Origin: Leptolyngbya sp. PCC 6406
GTDB lineage: Bacteria > Cyanobacteriota > Cyanobacteriia > Phormidesmidales > Phormidesmidaceae
NCBI RefSeq assembly: GCF_000332095.2
Contig: NZ_KI913949.1
Location: forward strand, 3,137,715-3,201,714
Reading direction: 5' to 3'
DNA length: 64,000 bases
This document shows positions 16,419 to 28,802 of this stretch, piece by piece. The notes beneath the pieces are model-generated. The model did no database searches. It worked only from the letters and a program-made list of their open reading frames with translations, and was not told the DNA's origin. Each line of letters opens with the position of its first letter. Positions within the stretch are counted from its first letter, which is position 1. Made by a program: the position numbers and the translations under genes.

Positions 16419-17444
16419 ATGGCTTGTATGCAGAAAATTGATAGTATGCGTCCCCTCTATTTTTTGTTGCCCGGTACCAGCGGTCGGTATCTCTGTGGGG
16501 GGTTGTTTGCGGAACTCAAGACCCTGGCCCTCGTGCAGCAGGTGACTGAAGCGGCGGTGGTGACCTACCGGCAGCGGGAGCCTGACACCCTGTTTTTATC
16601 TGATGTGCTGAAGCGTCAGGCTGCTCGGGACGCCATTTTTGTGGTCAGTTGGGGCTTTGATGTGCCCAAATTGGTGGCGCGGCTGCGGGGGCGATCCCTG
16701 CTGCACCATGCCCACAGTGCGGGCTATGGGTTTCGCCTTCCTGCCTCGGTGCCCATTCTTACCGTCAGCCGCAACACGATGGGCTACTGGGGGCAGCGTG
16801 CCCCCAATGCGCCGATTTACTATTTGCCGAACCATATTTCTGAAGCTTTTTGCGATCGCGGTTTACCCCGAGACATTGACGTGCTGGTGCAGGGACGAAA
16901 ATCATCCCAGTATTTGCTCAATCAATTGGTCCCCGCCCTGGAAAAGCGCTGCCGAGTGGTAGTCCTGGATAGTTTCGTCGAGGATTTAGGGGAACTGTTC
17001 AACCGGGCCAAGGTATACCTCTACGACTCGGCAGAACATTGGGCGATCGCAGGGGTATCTGAAGGATTTGGCCTGCCTCCGATGGAAGCCCTAGCCTGTG
17101 GGTGCCAGGTATTTTCCAGCGTCAACCATGCCCTAGCGGACTATCTAGATCCGGGATTTAACTGTGAAAAGATTGGCGTCTACTCCACCGCCTATGATGT
17201 GGAGCGCATCCTTGCAGCGGTGGCCAATCCCCAGCCCTTCTCCCTACCAGAAAGCTTCTTTACACCCTATCGGCAGGCTCAACTCCTCCCCCGCTGCCGT
17301 CACATTTTGAAGGAAATCAATCACTTCTTTGACCACGCCACCACCCACCCAGCAGATGTACCGGGACTCTCCCCCCTGCGACAATTGCGCCTCCAAGGCC
17401 AGCGCCTTTGGACCAAGGGCTGGCAAAAGCTGGTCCGAAGCTAG
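16419..17444 (+). CDS. GT-B fold glycosyltransferase, family 1/4-like
   Basis: 341 residues (starts at residues 4 or 10, MRPLYFLLPGTSGRY, are equally possible). A Rossmann-like N-half is followed by GVSEGFGLPPMEALACGCQVF (about 218-238), the nucleotide-sugar binding and EX7E-type motif of family 4 enzymes. No membrane helices. Donor and acceptor unknown; likely cell-envelope or exopolysaccharide sugar transfer. The gene stands alone, and its TAG stop lies exactly at the edge of a miniature element. Confidence 0.78.
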   Translation: MACMQKIDSMRPLYFLLPGTSGRYLCGGLFAELKTLALVQQVTEAAVVTYRQREPDTLFLSDVLKRQAARDAIFVVSWGFDVPKLVARLRGRSLLHHAHSAGYGFRLPASVPILTVSRNTMGYWGQRAPNAPIYYLPNHISEAFCDRGLPRDIDVLVQGRKSSQYLLNQLVPALEKRCRVVVLDSFVEDLGELFNRAKVYLYDSAEHWAIAGVSEGFGLPPMEALACGCQVFSSVNHALADYLDPGFNCEKIGVYSTAYDVERILAAVANPQPFSLPESFFTPYRQAQLLPRCRHILKEINHFFDHATTHPADVPGLSPLRQLRLQGQRLWTKGWQKLVRS

Positions 17445-17588
17445 TACCGCGAGGCAGAAATCGGCTTACGATTCTGCCGCACCAGCCCAATATTTTCTAG
17501 TCCCCTCTCCCCGTGGGAGAGGGTTAGGGTGAGGGGCCGAGATGTCCTACGATAGAACGGTTAGAGCATTGCCGCCATCATGTACTAG
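17441..17588. mobile_element. GTAC-ended miniature element at a glycosyltransferase stop codon
   Basis: 148-bp, apparently complete copy running C-TA-GTACCGCGAGG to CATGTAC-TA-G. It contains GATTCTGCCGCACCAGCCCA, the CCCTCTCCCCGTGGGAGAGGG hairpin, and no coding frame. The first TAG (17442-17444) is the stop of the upstream gene, as in the sahH copy. Confidence 0.78.
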
Positions 17589-17620
17589 TCCAACTTATAT
17601 CCTACCCGAGTTAGCCAATC

Positions 17621-18790
17621 ATGGCCCTTTTTAGTCAGCTCCTAAGACTTCATAAAGGCAACATTCCATTAGAGGATTTCTTCACTGAAGTTGTGGCCTA
17701 TTTTTTGAGTAAAAACAAAGAAATCTTATTTTCTTGGCTTAAGCACAATGACATTCTGAATTCAGAAGATTACTTAGCGGCTGACATCACCACACAGAAA
17801 ACCTACAAGCATCCTATCAACGGCGACAAGCGACCTGATATCGTAATAGAACTATCGAATGGAGAAAGCTGTGATCTTATTTTTATCGAAAGCAAAGTAG
17901 GATCATCTGAAGGATACAATCAACTATCTGACTACGCTGAAATCCTAAATCAGCTACCTGAATATCGACACAAGTTTTTAATATATGTAACCAGGGATTT
18001 TGATCCGAAAAAAGAATCGAAAATCTTTGAAAATATTCCTGATGTCATTAGGAATTTCAACGTTAAATTCAAACAGTTGCGCTGGCATCAGTTTTATCAG
18101 TTCCTAACTACTCAAGTTAATTCTGAAATTAGTCAAGAAATCACTATCTTCATGCAGGAGCACCGGATGGCCCAGAGTAATCAGTTTTCCCCTGTTGACA
18201 TATCAGCACTAGTAAACTTCCTTCCAGCACTAAAACTGATGGAAGCAGTAATGTGGGGCAAGGTTGTAGCACAATTTGAAAAAGTCCTGGGAAGGAATAA
18301 AAAGCGTGAAATCGCAAAGCGTCATGCACTCCAATGGATTCAGTGGCACGGACGCTACATATTAGTTTCTCAGATGCCTGACGGATGGTCATGCTTTATG
18401 GGCTTTTTCATGCAACCCGTTGAATCTGTTGACTCTTCTGGATATCCGAGTGTTCAGCTTGTACTACAAGTAGAACCAAAGTCGCCTAAGCGCCAAGAGA
18501 TTATTAACGGATTAAGGCAAATAGCTAATGATTCTAGCTGGCATTCATATAACCTAGATGCTTCTAGTACTTGGTCAGGAATTACTTTGCAAAGAAGTCT
18601 GCGAGAATTCTTGTCCATGGAAGATCATGTGTCTGCAATTGAGGATTTTTTTCTGGAGGCATTGAGCGAGCTAAAAAATATTAGACAGCAATATCCTCAA
18701 TTGCCATGGGGATCTGTCATAGATGAAGATGTCATAGATGAAGATAAAGACGAGGATGAGAATGTGTTGGGGGAAGAGTCTTCAGCCTAA
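17621..18790 (+). CDS. PD-(D/E)XK nuclease superfamily protein
   Basis: 389 residues. The catalytic core is visible: RPDIVIEL (Asp73), then DLIFIESKVGS (Glu90-x-Lys92), then the QLSDYAEIL helix (about 101-109). This spacing fits the PDDEXK_4-type restriction-like fold. The C-terminal half is unassigned and ends in a highly acidic tail (DEDVIDEDKDEDENVLGEE). The gene is plainly more AT-rich than its neighbours, carries few HIP1 sites, and lies alone between two same-orientation copies of a miniature element: signs of transfer. A role in DNA defence is a guess; no methylase or partner is adjacent. Confidence 0.72.
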   Translation: MALFSQLLRLHKGNIPLEDFFTEVVAYFLSKNKEILFSWLKHNDILNSEDYLAADITTQKTYKHPINGDKRPDIVIELSNGESCDLIFIESKVGSSEGYNQLSDYAEILNQLPEYRHKFLIYVTRDFDPKKESKIFENIPDVIRNFNVKFKQLRWHQFYQFLTTQVNSEISQEITIFMQEHRMAQSNQFSPVDISALVNFLPALKLMEAVMWGKVVAQFEKVLGRNKKREIAKRHALQWIQWHGRYILVSQMPDGWSCFMGFFMQPVESVDSSGYPSVQLVLQVEPKSPKRQEIINGLRQIANDSSWHSYNLDASSTWSGITLQRSLREFLSMEDHVSAIEDFFLEALSELKNIRQQYPQLPWGSVIDEDVIDEDKDEDENVLGEESSA

Positions 18791-18803
18791 ATTCATGCCA
18801 AAG

Positions 18804-19000
18804 CTAGTACCGATTTGCGAAAATAAGCTTGCGATTCTGCCGCACCAGCCCAACATTTTCTGGTCCCCTCTCCCCCTGGGCTACTGTGTATACATAAGTT
18901 GTCTATAGTGCCTTGTCAGCGATCTAGCCCCCTAGATCCCCTAATTCTGGGGGACTTTCAACTCCGGTCTCCCCCCAGAATTGGGGGGACTAAGGGGGGC
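18804..19000. mobile_element. broken GTAC-ended element with nested second repeat
   Basis: 18804-18891 matches the left half of the 17441 copy. At CCCTGGG it is interrupted by CTACTGTGTATACATAAGT, the same junction and sequence seen inverted at 28700-28720. Then follow CCCCCTAGATCCCC and CCCCCCAGAATTGGGGGG, an inverted-repeat tract common in cyanobacteria. The right end of the outer element is missing. Confidence 0.65.
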
Positions 19001-19041
19001 CGATGCCGCTCAGTTCAGCAACATCAGGAGGATACACAGGC

Positions 19042-19923
19042 ATGGCGGTACTCCCGAACCCAGACCTAGACGCCGTCCCCCTGACCGCCGCCATGATTCG
19101 TCAGGTGGAGGCGGGGATAGCCATTGCCCAGAAGCCCCAAGTGCAGCGCCATATTCAAGAGAGCTTGGCCCAACTGGGGGATGTGAACTCCAGCACCAAG
19201 GAGCGGCGGGTTAGTGGCACCTTGCGGCGCTGGGCCTTGAGAATGGCCATCGGACTCGCGTTTCGGGTGCGGGTAGAGCAGCCGGAATTTATCCCCACTC
19301 AGCGCGGTGTGCTGGTGGCCAATCACCTCAGCCACCTCGATCCCTTCCTTCTCCTGGCCACGGTGCCGCCCCATCCCTACTACTACAGTTTGGGAGATGC
19401 CCGTACCCTCTTTGGTCAGGGGTGGAAGCGTTGGCTATTTGGCAAGGCGGGCGGAGTGATTCCCCTAGAGCGGTGGTGGAAGGAGGAGATGGCGGTGATG
19501 GCTGTGGCCCAGGGTGATCGCCCCGATCTGAAACCCTTGGCGGAAGCGATCGAAAAACACGTCCCCAGCGGCAACTCCATTCAACAACTGCGCCAGATCG
19601 ATCAGGCGGTGCAGGGTATTTTGCGGCGGGGGGATAGCATCTTGCTCTTTCCCGAAGGTCGCCTCGGTAGTCAAGAGGGCAAACTCCATCTCCCCCTAAA
19701 GCGGGGTACGGTGATCTATGCCCTGCGATCAGGGGTGCCCATTACCCCGGTGGCGATCCGGGGCACCAGCCACCTGTCCTTTCGCAAAACCTTGACCCTA
19801 CGCTTTGGGCCACCTCTCCAGTTTCCCCAAGAAAAACGCCCCCGCCGGGACAAGATCGATAGTGCGATCGCGCAACTAGAACAGGCCCTCACTGCCCTGC
19901 TCACACCGCCTTTAGGGAAATAA
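19042..19923 (+). CDS. PlsC-like glycerolipid acyltransferase
   Basis: 293-residue acyltransferase. Motif I is NHLSHLDPF (NHx4D), motif III FPEGRLGSQEG, and motif IV VPITPVAIRGT. An insertion between motifs I and II (about 140-200) makes it longer than PlsC at 3193, the other paralogue. The ATG at 19042 follows AGGAGG (19026-19031) by ten bases. It probably acylates lysophosphatidate or another lyso-glycerolipid; specificity cannot be read. Confidence 0.82.
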   Translation: MAVLPNPDLDAVPLTAAMIRQVEAGIAIAQKPQVQRHIQESLAQLGDVNSSTKERRVSGTLRRWALRMAIGLAFRVRVEQPEFIPTQRGVLVANHLSHLDPFLLLATVPPHPYYYSLGDARTLFGQGWKRWLFGKAGGVIPLERWWKEEMAVMAVAQGDRPDLKPLAEAIEKHVPSGNSIQQLRQIDQAVQGILRRGDSILLFPEGRLGSQEGKLHLPLKRGTVIYALRSGVPITPVAIRGTSHLSFRKTLTLRFGPPLQFPQEKRPRRDKIDSAIAQLEQALTALLTPPLGK

Positions 19924-23775: not shown

Positions 23776-24975
23776 ATGTTCCCTACATTCTACCAAACTA
23801 CCCTTCTCACCCATCTCAATGAAAAACAGTACTTGACCTTCCAGTTACTGTTGTTATTGCTACAAGCGCATCGCCAAGTCAAACTCTCCGTCTTAGCCAG
23901 CGTCTTTCCTCAGCCCATTCAGTATCAAAGTCGCAAACGGAACTTACAACGCTTTTTAGCCTTACCCAAACTCACGCTCAAGGTGCTGTGGTTTCCACTG
24001 CTCAAATATTGGATCCGCCAAGTGGAAACGGGACGGGGCTTGAACCGTGACCAACGCCGTCGTCTGAGAACGCTCAAACACCATAAACACGGCTATTGGA
24101 TTCTGGCAATGGACCGCACGGAATGGAAAGGGCGAAATATATTCATGGTCAGCGTGGTGTGGGGGACTCATGCTTTACCCGTCTATTGGGAGCGTTTAGG
24201 GCGGGCGGGTACGAGTGACCTGAAAACGCAACGGCGACTGCTGAAAGCGGCCCTGTCCTTGTTTAAGTCCTACCCGGTTCTACTGCTGGGTGACCGGGAG
24301 TTCCATAGCCCTAAACTGGCGGAATGGTTGGATCAGCGCGGGGTGTCCTTTGCACTCCGACAGAAAAAGGACTTCCATTTCAAGACCGATACCGATACCG
24401 ACTATCAAGTCCTCAAAAACGTTGGCTTCAAACCGGGCCAGTCTCGATTTTATGAGGGAGTTTTGTGCAACAAGGGCGATGGTATGGGCCCGTTTAATTT
24501 AGCGGTGTATTGGAAGCGCTCCTATCGCCAGAAGGGGCCGAAGGAGCCGTGGTATATCCTGACTAATCTGCCCACCTTGAAGCAAGCGTTAGCGGTCTAT
24601 CGATGTCGCTGGGGCATTGAACAGCTCTTCAAAGACTTTAAGACTGGGGGCTATAACTTGGAGGATACCAAGGTCAATGACACCCGATTCTTAGCCTTAG
24701 TTTTACTGATCGCTCTGGCTTACAGTTTGGCGACTCTCCACGGCCAGTGGATGCAGGAGGCCAAGCTAGCTCAGTATGCCGGACGTCTCCAAGAGCACCA
24801 AGATAAGGCTCCACGGCACAGTGACTTTAGCTTCAGTCTCTATGGCCAACGATGGCTCTATGCCATGGACTTATGGGCCGATTGGGCGCTCAAGCTGGTG
24901 GCCCTTAAACCCCATAAACACCGCTATTTTCAGCGAGGTTTTCACGCTCTATCCCTTATCCAGCAAGCTCTCTAG
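23776..24975 (+). CDS. IS4-family transposase
   Basis: 399 residues, DDE type. The first Asp is in LAMDRTEWKG, the second in LLGDREFHSPKLAEWL, and the Glu in YRCRWGIEQLFKDFK, which fits the IS4 YREK signature Y-2-R-3-E-6-K exactly. The frame is intact from ATG to stop, and both ends of the element are present, so it may be active. Confidence 0.92.
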   Translation: MFPTFYQTTLLTHLNEKQYLTFQLLLLLLQAHRQVKLSVLASVFPQPIQYQSRKRNLQRFLALPKLTLKVLWFPLLKYWIRQVETGRGLNRDQRRRLRTLKHHKHGYWILAMDRTEWKGRNIFMVSVVWGTHALPVYWERLGRAGTSDLKTQRRLLKAALSLFKSYPVLLLGDREFHSPKLAEWLDQRGVSFALRQKKDFHFKTDTDTDYQVLKNVGFKPGQSRFYEGVLCNKGDGMGPFNLAVYWKRSYRQKGPKEPWYILTNLPTLKQALAVYRCRWGIEQLFKDFKTGGYNLEDTKVNDTRFLALVLLIALAYSLATLHGQWMQEAKLAQYAGRLQEHQDKAPRHSDFSFSLYGQRWLYAMDLWADWALKLVALKPHKHRYFQRGFHALSLIQQAL

Positions 24976-25129: not shown

Positions 25130-26512
25130 TTAGTCTAGGTCGCCCATGGACAAGACGGGTTCAGAGGAACGATCGATCCCCTTCTCAAAACCAGCTTCAG
25201 CCGCCCGAGCACGACCTGCATGCCACAGGTGACCCACGAGGAAGAAGAAGCCCAGAACGAAGTGAGAGGTAGACAACCACTGACGGGGGTTGACAAAGTT
25301 CACGGAGTTAATTTCCGTGATGATGCCGCCCACGGAGTTGATGGAGGCATTAGGCGCATGAGTCATGTACTCAGCGGCCCGCCGCACCTGCCAGTCTTGA
25401 ATGTCGTTCTTTAGCTTATCCAAATCCAGGCCATTGGGACCCCGCAGGGGCTCCAGCCAGGGGCCTTGGAAGTCCCAGAAGCGCATAGTTTCACCCCCAA
25501 AGATGATTTCACCAGTGGGAGAGCGCATCAGGTACTTACCCAAACCCGTAGGGCCTTGGGCTGCACCAATGTTGGCCCCTAGGCGCAGGTCGCGCACCAG
25601 GAAGGTCATGGCTTGAGCTTGAGAGGCTTCTGCGTTGGTGGGACCGTAGAACTCACTGGGGTAAGCGGTGTTGTTGAACCACACAAAGCAAGAGGCAATG
25701 AAGCCCATCAGGGACAACGCGCCCAAGCTGTAGGACAGGTAGGCTTCACCAGACCACACCAGAGAACGGCGTGCCCAGGCAAAGGGCTTGGTCAGGATAT
25801 GCCAGATACCGCCACCGATGCAGATGAGGCCGATCCAGATATGACCACCGATGATGTCTTCCATGTTGTTGACGCCAACGATCCAGCCGTTGCCGCCAAA
25901 GGGAGAACCAACCAAGTAGCCAAAGATGATAGCGGGATTCAAGGTGGGGTTGGTAATTACCCGCACATCGCCTCCACCAGGAGCCCAGGTGTCATAGACA
26001 CCACCCAAGAAACAAGCCTTAATCACCAACAACAAAGCTCCACATCCCAACAGGATGAGGTGGATGCCGATGATGGTGGTCATCTTGTTCTTGTCTTTCC
26101 AGTCGTAGCCAAAGAACGCAGAGTATTCCTCTAGCGTTTCAGGGCCACGAACGGCATGGTAAATACCGCCTAGGCCCAAGACGGCGGATGAAACCAAGTG
26201 CAACACACCCACAACGAAGTAGGGGAAGGTGTCAATGACTTCACCACCAGGGCCAACGCCCCAGCCCAGGGTAGCCAAGTGAGGCAGAAGAATGAAGCCT
26301 TGCTCATACAAGGGCTTCTCAGGGACAAAGTGGGCGACCTCAAATAGGGTCATCGCACCGGTCCAGAACACAATCAGGCCAGCGTGGGCGACGTGGGCAC
26401 CCAGCAGTTTGCCAGACAGATTGATTAAGCGAGCGTTACCAGACCACCAGGCGAACCCGGTAGATTCTTGATCGCGCCCACCAAGGTAGGAATTACTAGA
26501 GAGCGTTACCAC
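25130..26512 (-). CDS. psbC: photosystem II CP43 antenna protein
   Basis: 460-residue inner antenna binding chlorophyll a and contributing to the Mn4CaO5 site. [13 protein letters not shown] begins the mature region; the large lumenal loop contains [28 protein letters not shown], including the conserved Arg-rich segment. I chose the GTG at 26512 (GTGGTAACGCTC), which overlaps the end of psbD by 17 bases and has GAAGAGG nine bases upstream, as documented for psbD-psbC in plastids and cyanobacteria. An upstream ATG-type start giving 472 residues is the common alternative annotation. Confidence 0.96.
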
Positions 26513-28462: not shown

Positions 28463-28802
28463 TTAGTACTGGGCGGCGGAAATACCCTGGCCGTTCCATC
28501 GTGGCACACTCGGCCCCTCACCCTAGCCCTCTCCCACGGGGCTACTGTGTACACACATCTCTCTGAGCAGTCACATTTTGGCGAATCCCCCGCGATCGCC
28601 GCCCCCTTTTCAAGGGGGCTACTCCAATTCTGGATAGGACTGCCCCCCTTAAAAAGGGGGGTTGGGGGGATCAAACCCTAAACAAGACTCAACCGAAGAC
28701 TTATGTATATACAGTAGCCCAGGGGGAGAGGGGACCGGAGAAGGTTGGGCGGGCGCGGCAATAGTGGGCTGATTTACGCCCTGCGGTACTAAGTGGTTCT
28801 CC
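28463..28802. mobile_element. GTAC-ended element interrupted by a nested element
   Basis: Outer ends are T-TA-GTAC (28463) and GTAC-TA-A (ending 28802), implying a TTAA target. Inside, CTACTGTGTACACA and TGTATATACAGTAG form inverted ends of a nested element of about 175 bp that splits the CCCACGGGG/GAGAGGGG core. The nested part carries GCGAATCCCCCGCGATCGCC and CCCCCTTAAAAAGGGGGG, also present at 55401-55530. No gene in 28389-28855. Confidence 0.7.

Follow-up and report, generated by a model that had tools for sequence, protein, structure and literature searches.

The stretch analysed here, hereafter the window, comprises 64,000 nucleotides of the 5.78-Mb genome of Leptolyngbya sp. PCC 6406 (C1:3137715-3201714) with Rubisco, psbC and psbD among its genes, and the subject of this analysis is a PDDEXK_4-type nuclease gene that lies in it between a glycosyltransferase gene and an acyltransferase gene and is bracketed by two copies of a dispersed repeat, R (Table 1). 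The predicted protein matches PDDEXK_4 (PF14281) at 29.5 bits (cut-off 22.3; E 8.9e-7) over residues 50-168, corresponding to profile positions 60-166 of 183, while two of six homologues scanned score just under that cut-off (21.3 vs 22.3). A first-pass annotation, made from the sequence letters alone, had described a complete Asp-x16-Glu-x-Lys core, and this was borne out as D73-x16-E90-x-K92: the triad is invariant in 17/17 rows of our alignment A1, whose rows of lowest identity (22-24%) come from one plasmid each of Fusobacteria and Flammeovirga and from a distant phylum member, and in 29/29 loci of another family of genomes (f7), a set of 30 loci assembled with no motif selection from which one was dropped since its match begins behind the core. 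Residues L102, Y105, T124 and G261 are likewise invariant across the 17 aligned homologues. A Q-x3-Y motif behind the core was considered as a general feature and rejected, because alanine replaces Q101 in 17 of the 24 rows selected by motif. The acidic tail noted in the same annotation is present at residues 364-389, with an exact 15-nt tandem repeat in its coding region; as its length varies among the A1 homologues, several of which have no tail, an essential role is unlikely. The gene, which is intact, is kept under purifying selection, as the ratio of nonsynonymous to synonymous substitution rates (dN/dS) was ~0.10 in comparison with its homologue in Nodosilinea sp. P-1105 (locus L005), the nearest named relative, at a dS of 2.2 that is near saturation, and 0.07-0.29 for the other computable homologue pairs apart from L138/L140 (0.60).

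Table 1. Features of the nuclease locus (positions within the window; ORF, open reading frame; MITE, miniature inverted-repeat transposable element)
Feature	Position	Strand	Remarks
Glycosyltransferase group 1, upstream neighbour	16419..17444	+	Matched in 61/63 genomes of the host's family
Repeat R, left copy (CTAGTAC...GTACTAG)	17441..17588	+	Whole, ~148 bp; glycosyltransferase stop codon (TAG) lies in its first bases
PDDEXK_4-type nuclease gene	17621..18790	+	Intact ORF, ATG start, 389 aa; PF14281 match
N-terminal PD-(D/E)XK domain	17621..18175	+	Pfam stretch 50-168, core residues, weak fold matches
Core residues	D73 17837-17839; E90 17888-17890; K92 17894-17896	+	Plus Y105
C-terminal alpha/beta domain, residues 186-363	18176..18709	+	No Pfam match above cut-off; G261 invariant in A1
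Acidic tail, residues 364-389	18710..18787	+	Partly from a 15-nt tandem duplication, 18715-18744
Repeat R, right copy	18804..18880	+	Truncated; similarity ends at ~18880
MITE-like nested element, left end (CTACTGTGTATACATAAGT)	18881..18899	+	In R hairpin; right end not recognised
PlsC-type acyltransferase, downstream neighbour	19003..19923	+	PF01553, E 6.2e-18

The gene is patchy in its distribution and lies at different loci in related genomes. In the family of the host (f1), whose order contains the same 63 genomes, some of them incomplete, the gene was found in nine, the host included, and three of these copies are broken (G030, G025 and G015); it was not found in the three other genomes of the same genus (completeness 61-87%). 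A sample of the phylum yielded 13 genomes of 386, again with the host included and with broken copies in G436, G388 and G445, and an f7 query detected the gene in 47 of 217 f7 genomes, where about seven of the 47 copies are broken by stops, splits or fragments. Homologues were present in 3 of 72,556 plasmid records. The host genome itself contains a second, broken copy, a C-terminal remnant at C1:51582-51734 with an N6-methylase gene two ORFs away. The tree, with 8 of 14 inner branches left open, places the window gene with that of G027 (93/91). G414, of family f11, branches from the unresolved fork that also bears the f1 copies, while two f1 genomes, G007 and G043, are placed elsewhere; support for these positions is weak. 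In relatives the glycosyltransferase and acyltransferase genes were not observed as neighbours, within loci most of which reach only ~1.5 kb past the glycosyltransferase and a few 2-6 kb.

The base composition of the gene differs clearly from that of its neighbours, as the first-pass annotation had stated, with a GC content of 0.396 as compared to 0.557 for the window (z = -3.8 against 1170-nt windows taken at steps of 50 nt), and all such windows under 0.43 overlap the gene. Low GC is nonetheless a lasting trait of the nuclease family and no proof of recent import. In 15 of 17 loci the homologue has the lowest GC content of all ORFs of 150 aa or more, the mean offset is -0.12, and the GC of the homologue follows that of the host (r = 0.91, slope 0.52; 17 loci). 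Since homologues are AT-rich family-wide and their composition tracks that of the host, low GC is no sign of a foreign gene, and the argument for a recent import on this ground was rejected. The window protein shares 66-68% identity with the Nodosilinea homologue, which is similar to the identity of the neighbouring glycosyltransferase to its counterparts in genus g8 (61-68%, with one partial match at 51%), and thus gives no indication that the gene arrived recently from a distant source.

The repeat bracket is real, in agreement with the first-pass description of GTAC-ended elements in the same orientation on both sides of the gene. Positions 17435-17517 and 18798-18880 are 84% identical, and just 32 nt separate the left copy from the gene start and 13 nt the gene end from the right copy. 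A role of R as private boundary of the nuclease gene was rejected, as R occurs at no fewer than 46 places in the genome (a lower bound obtained by scoring 40 of 215 candidates), and six copies lie in the window. Among the 46 places there are six same-strand, head-to-tail pairs, less than 200 bp from start to start, two of which include one partial copy, and because R also occurs as such pairs the nuclease gene seems to be set into the joint of one of them. Random placement of six copies per 64 kb yields a same-strand pair 0.3-1.6 kb apart in 25% of cases, and a particular gene is flanked by copies on both sides, each within 60 bp, with p ~1.6e-5, corresponding to ~0.09 tight brackets expected genome-wide at an assumed ~5,500 genes; these values presume uniform placement, and a preference of R for intergenic gaps would raise them. 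An element with the ends CTACTGTGTATACA is nested in the R hairpin in several copies, that on the right flank of the gene included, and copies with both ends occupy the same point of R at L090, L091, L092 and window positions 28481-28797. By eye, this MITE-like element is accompanied by a 9-bp target duplication at L090 and L091.

It could be argued from the tight bracket, and from the impression that the gene is inserted into a head-to-tail joint, that R is a non-autonomous mobile element of which two copies mobilise the gene as a composite unit. The flanking copies, being 84% identical, are however not recent twins, the right one is truncated, and no R was seen beside homologues in the other cyanobacterial genomes scanned, where two partial matches to R lie 7-8 kb from the homologue, in L143 and L046. 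We consider the nuclease gene a very doubtful candidate for cargo of this kind, and it may rather have been integrated by recombination at the repeat, in which case the bracket would have a part in its mobility.

A second type of location was observed in genus g8, where five genomes (G024, G025, G027, G030 and G035) carry the gene or a remnant of it behind dnaE-n, the DNA polymerase half-gene that ends in an intein half. The interval between dnaE-n and the nuclease gene holds UPF0175-PIN, ParE-Phd or XisH-XisI genes in varying combinations, or nothing, the ParE neighbour having a weak Phd/YefM match beside it. At least one such cassette or the nuclease is present in 11 of 24 split-dnaE loci surveyed, although some contigs end early and XisI is only a fragment in one. 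Because the intein-half end is repeated further on in G027 and G029, at 92-97% identity, with a weaker second copy in G039, we infer that cassettes may enter by recombination with the 3′ end of dnaE-n. Loci with such a dnaE-n 3′ end include L005 (3595-5409) and L153. Among the family genomes dnaE is either split (a frame of ~870-900 aa) or whole (~1180-1200 aa), even inside genus g8. Locus L005 further encodes a 226-aa protein without a Pfam match but with a nuclease-like VVVEAKRG stretch, and relatives of this protein (65-74%) lie behind dnaE-n in G005, G048 and G061 (L166 1115-1798, L168 1133-1810 and L169 1136-1801). No literature on a dnaE split-intein cassette hot spot in cyanobacteria was found among the listed titles and abstract openings of open-licence papers.

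The mixed cassettes of ParE-Phd, UPF0175-PIN and XisH-XisI genes at the dnaE-n 3′ end, together with the broken copies of the nuclease gene in several genomes and the repeat bracket in the window, would also suit a selfish or addictive cassette, in which a toxin-like nuclease persists through its own mobility or through linkage to toxin-antitoxin genes and is of no defensive benefit to the host. Intact copies that have no neighbouring antitoxin, namely those of the window and L045, and the purifying selection acting on the window-L005 pair argue against this explanation, which we regard as unlikely.

In family f7 the nuclease gene has a different companion. The 30 f7 loci represent the best matches from the 47 genomes rather than a random draw, and in 23 of them a Uma2 gene lies directly downstream on the same strand, at a gap of at most 212 nt and with one overlapping, a pairing that spans at least four upstream contexts. 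Uma2 (PF05685) is described in PMC2701414 as a predicted PD-(D/E)XK nuclease that is abundant in cyanobacteria and is proposed to be a likely solo toxin. When the Uma2 protein of G130 was used as query, the best match in G187, G578, G400 and G311 (76-79%) was in each case the one that adjoins the nuclease gene, as compared to at most 64% for paralogues elsewhere in those four genomes and in G130, and L140 (G260) has a same-strand Uma2-like ORF one ORF beyond the nuclease gene. These observations raise the possibility that a nuclease-Uma2 unit is ancestral, with one protein controlling or completing the other, and that the window gene and most f1 copies are solo derivatives which may have another partner or be partly functional. 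Uma2 is, however, missing within ~1.5 kb in 7/30 f7 loci, five of which have the upstream flank common to most f7 loci (L207, L210, L215, L217 and L219), and the best matches to the G130 query in the host genome (41%), G027 (43%), G024 (38%) and G414 (61%) lie away from the nuclease gene, with 3-12 Uma2 matches per genome in the nine genomes searched. Within f1, moreover, Uma2-like ORFs adjoin only the broken G015 copy, while in G007 one lies four ORFs off on the other strand. An ancestral unit of this type is conceivable, though we lean against it. An extension would be an undescribed two-nuclease conflict module, consisting of PDDEXK_4 and its own Uma2 subfamily, that was split in the window lineage into solo cassettes reinserting via direct-repeat recombination at special joints such as R or the split-intein tail of dnaE-n, and this we put forward as a long shot.

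For the window gene itself we favour, at roughly even chances, a solo PD-(D/E)XK nuclease of defence type, moving as a cassette. It would be a stand-alone two-domain nuclease, in which the N-terminal D73/E90/K92 domain would cut DNA with the aid of a divalent metal, while the C-terminal alpha/beta domain might set when or where cutting occurs by binding a feature of foreign DNA or a phage protein. The protein could serve as a one-gene effector against phages or plasmids, either restriction-like or abortive, and the small cassette would spread into intergenic gaps, here between R copies, in genus g8 behind dnaE-n and in f7 near nif, dnaG or rpe-type genes. Toxin-antitoxin, Xis or restriction-type genes are neighbours of the homologue in several relatives: L046 has XisH (138 aa) followed by XisI, while type I restriction genes follow one of the three plasmid homologues and another of these lies two genes from an SduA-domain gene. 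The proposal of a solitary defence gene brought in or kept between repeats stands as far as the patchy, locus-changing nuclease family, these neighbours and the direct-repeat bracket are concerned, but it loses the arguments from low GC, which is family-wide, and from the repeat, which is dispersed and was not seen beside homologues in the other cyanobacterial genomes scanned.

An enrichment around homologues was seen for Uma2, which accounts for 14 of 120 neighbouring ORFs as compared to 2 of 116 in controls (p = 0.003), and the PADLOC candidate PDC-S03, probably the same ORFs, for 9 as compared to 1. The controls were 20 hand-picked stretches from 20 of the 21 genomes (G027 being without one), and the counts omit the three plasmid loci, the window neighbours and ORFs of 1500 aa or more. 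A count by locus (10 of 21 as compared to 2 of 20) was set aside, as it included a Uma2 gene beyond the range of three genes.

A number of results weigh against a mobile defence nuclease. The neighbour counts are not independent, as the loci are partly related by descent; PADLOC families outside Uma2 gave no countable enrichment (45 matched as compared to 16 in controls, with 25 of the 45 among the matches listed); and among the PADLOC hits several profiles fall on the same kind of ORF, while some look like house genes (DnaG-like). No defence gene was present among the scanned neighbours of the window copy, the match to the PADLOC candidate PDC-S26 is limited to the core, and the close pair L138/L140 has a dN/dS of 0.60. 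No homologue was found in 50,697 phage records, and none was confirmed in viral contigs by a pattern-seeded search, so that a phage origin of the gene was rejected. Finally, 24 of the 30 f7 loci have one upstream context in common (20 from genus g34 and four from other genera), which at L136 comprises homocitrate-synthase-type, NifZ and 2Fe-2S thioredoxin-like genes. The first-pass annotation had set homologues in vertical, syntenic positions with host-like composition against its own proposal, and among these best matches the synteny is found, yet the composition is not host-like.

Such a conserved position near nif-type genes also suits a housekeeping nuclease active in repair, recombination or the turnover of nucleic acids that is inherited vertically in some lineages and lost in others, as do the replication genes nearby elsewhere, namely dnaE-n and the DnaG-type gene upstream of the homologue in L138. 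The lack of a match in 54 of the 63 family genomes, some incomplete, the difference in locus between genera and the persistent AT-richness nevertheless make a housekeeping role highly improbable.

Structure models were made from the window and L005 sequences only, and both are of low confidence (mean predicted local distance difference test scores, pLDDT, of 53.6 and 55.0). Residues 1-170 gave weak matches, with Z scores of 4.6-5.8, to PD-(D/E)XK-type enzymes including the Shedu nuclease domain, R.BspD6I, Kpn2I, Cap4, Avs4, LmuA and XisH, although an unrelated RFC clamp loader and an RNA polymerase subunit also reach a Z score of 5.2. Foldseek returned no match for the nuclease model at E 0.001, no solved-structure relative was found by sequence search and a search of PHROGs gave no match. 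In the C-terminal region a pLDDT of 70-83 is attained only in parts of residues ~280-360. The first model of this region resembles a type III secretion chaperone and YbjN-like proteins (Z up to 7.0), and the second a red chlorophyll catabolite reductase (Z 6.9) and the MotA C-terminal domain (Z 6.4); no fold was adopted from these matches, as the models disagree and all Z scores are under 8 at low confidence. The sensing role suggested above for this domain is a guess. A viral structure match (Pithovirus, E 4.6e-5) was dismissed on account of a template-modelling score of 0.21 and a root-mean-square deviation (rmsd) of 23.5.

Pfam families were detected in five of the seven neighbouring window ORFs scanned (glycosyltransferase, acyltransferase, DUF4058, transposase and CCB2/CCB4; two had none), and the earlier statement that no methylase, helicase or antitoxin lies beside the gene held for all seven. 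Scans of the locus yielded one promoter-like site, on the opposite strand, as compared to 3.0 in shuffled sequences, two terminator-like sites as compared to 1.6, and a single RNA-family match, to a microRNA model and far under its cut-off. Elsewhere in the window, a DDE transposase (PF01609) at 23776-24975 is flanked by genes reading as glgA and psbC, and positions 25915-26101 of the forward strand match the Rfam family IsrR, the isiA antisense RNA, with 162.7 bits inside an apparent psbC gene of the opposite strand. The IsrR match is presumably a cross-hit caused by psbC-isiA homology.

Two findings deserve to be followed further, namely the nuclease-Uma2 pair and the hot spot at dnaE-n. A Uma2 subfamily tied to a PDDEXK_4 nuclease provides a concrete pair for testing. 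The paired, solo, cassette and decayed copies form a natural series that can reveal how single-gene nucleases settle and decay, and they carry the warning that a low GC content in genes of this kind can be a lasting feature and not a clock of recent transfer.

Among known systems, a type II restriction-modification system would be expected to include a cognate methyltransferase, and none is present among the window neighbours scanned. A toxin-antitoxin pair is likewise not apparent, as no small antitoxin gene lies beside the window gene, the 32-nt and 13-nt gaps leave no room for one, and the flanking R repeats contain no ORF of at least 80 aa, the minimum length listed. With respect to homing endonucleases, the window gene is intergenic, whereas in g8 five copies follow the split-intein gene dnaE-n, which may just be use of a hot spot. 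Uma2 is a family other than that of the window gene and is its neighbour in relatives. The fold of XisH is nuclease-like, and the window protein shows a weak fold match to it (2okf, Z 4.8, 19% identity); XisH and XisI neighbour the homologue in L046 but are both absent from the window locus. Shedu (SduA) is a single-gene PD-(D/E)XK defence nuclease, which residues 1-170 of the window protein resemble weakly in the low-confidence model (Z 5.5, rmsd 4.9, 140 residues aligned), although the protein has no Pfam match to the Shedu domain. PDC-S26 (E 2.9e-7) shares the core and a similar length, its profile having 400 positions, while the match covers residues 71-131 only (61 residues); the ‘phage defence candidate’ label denotes an untested class (PMC11514479). 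No literature on PDDEXK_4/PF14281 or PDC-S26 was found among open-licence papers. With PDDEXK_4 the window protein shares the core, which scores above the PF14281 cut-off, while the C-terminal domain of ~180 residues and the acidic tail lie outside the model.

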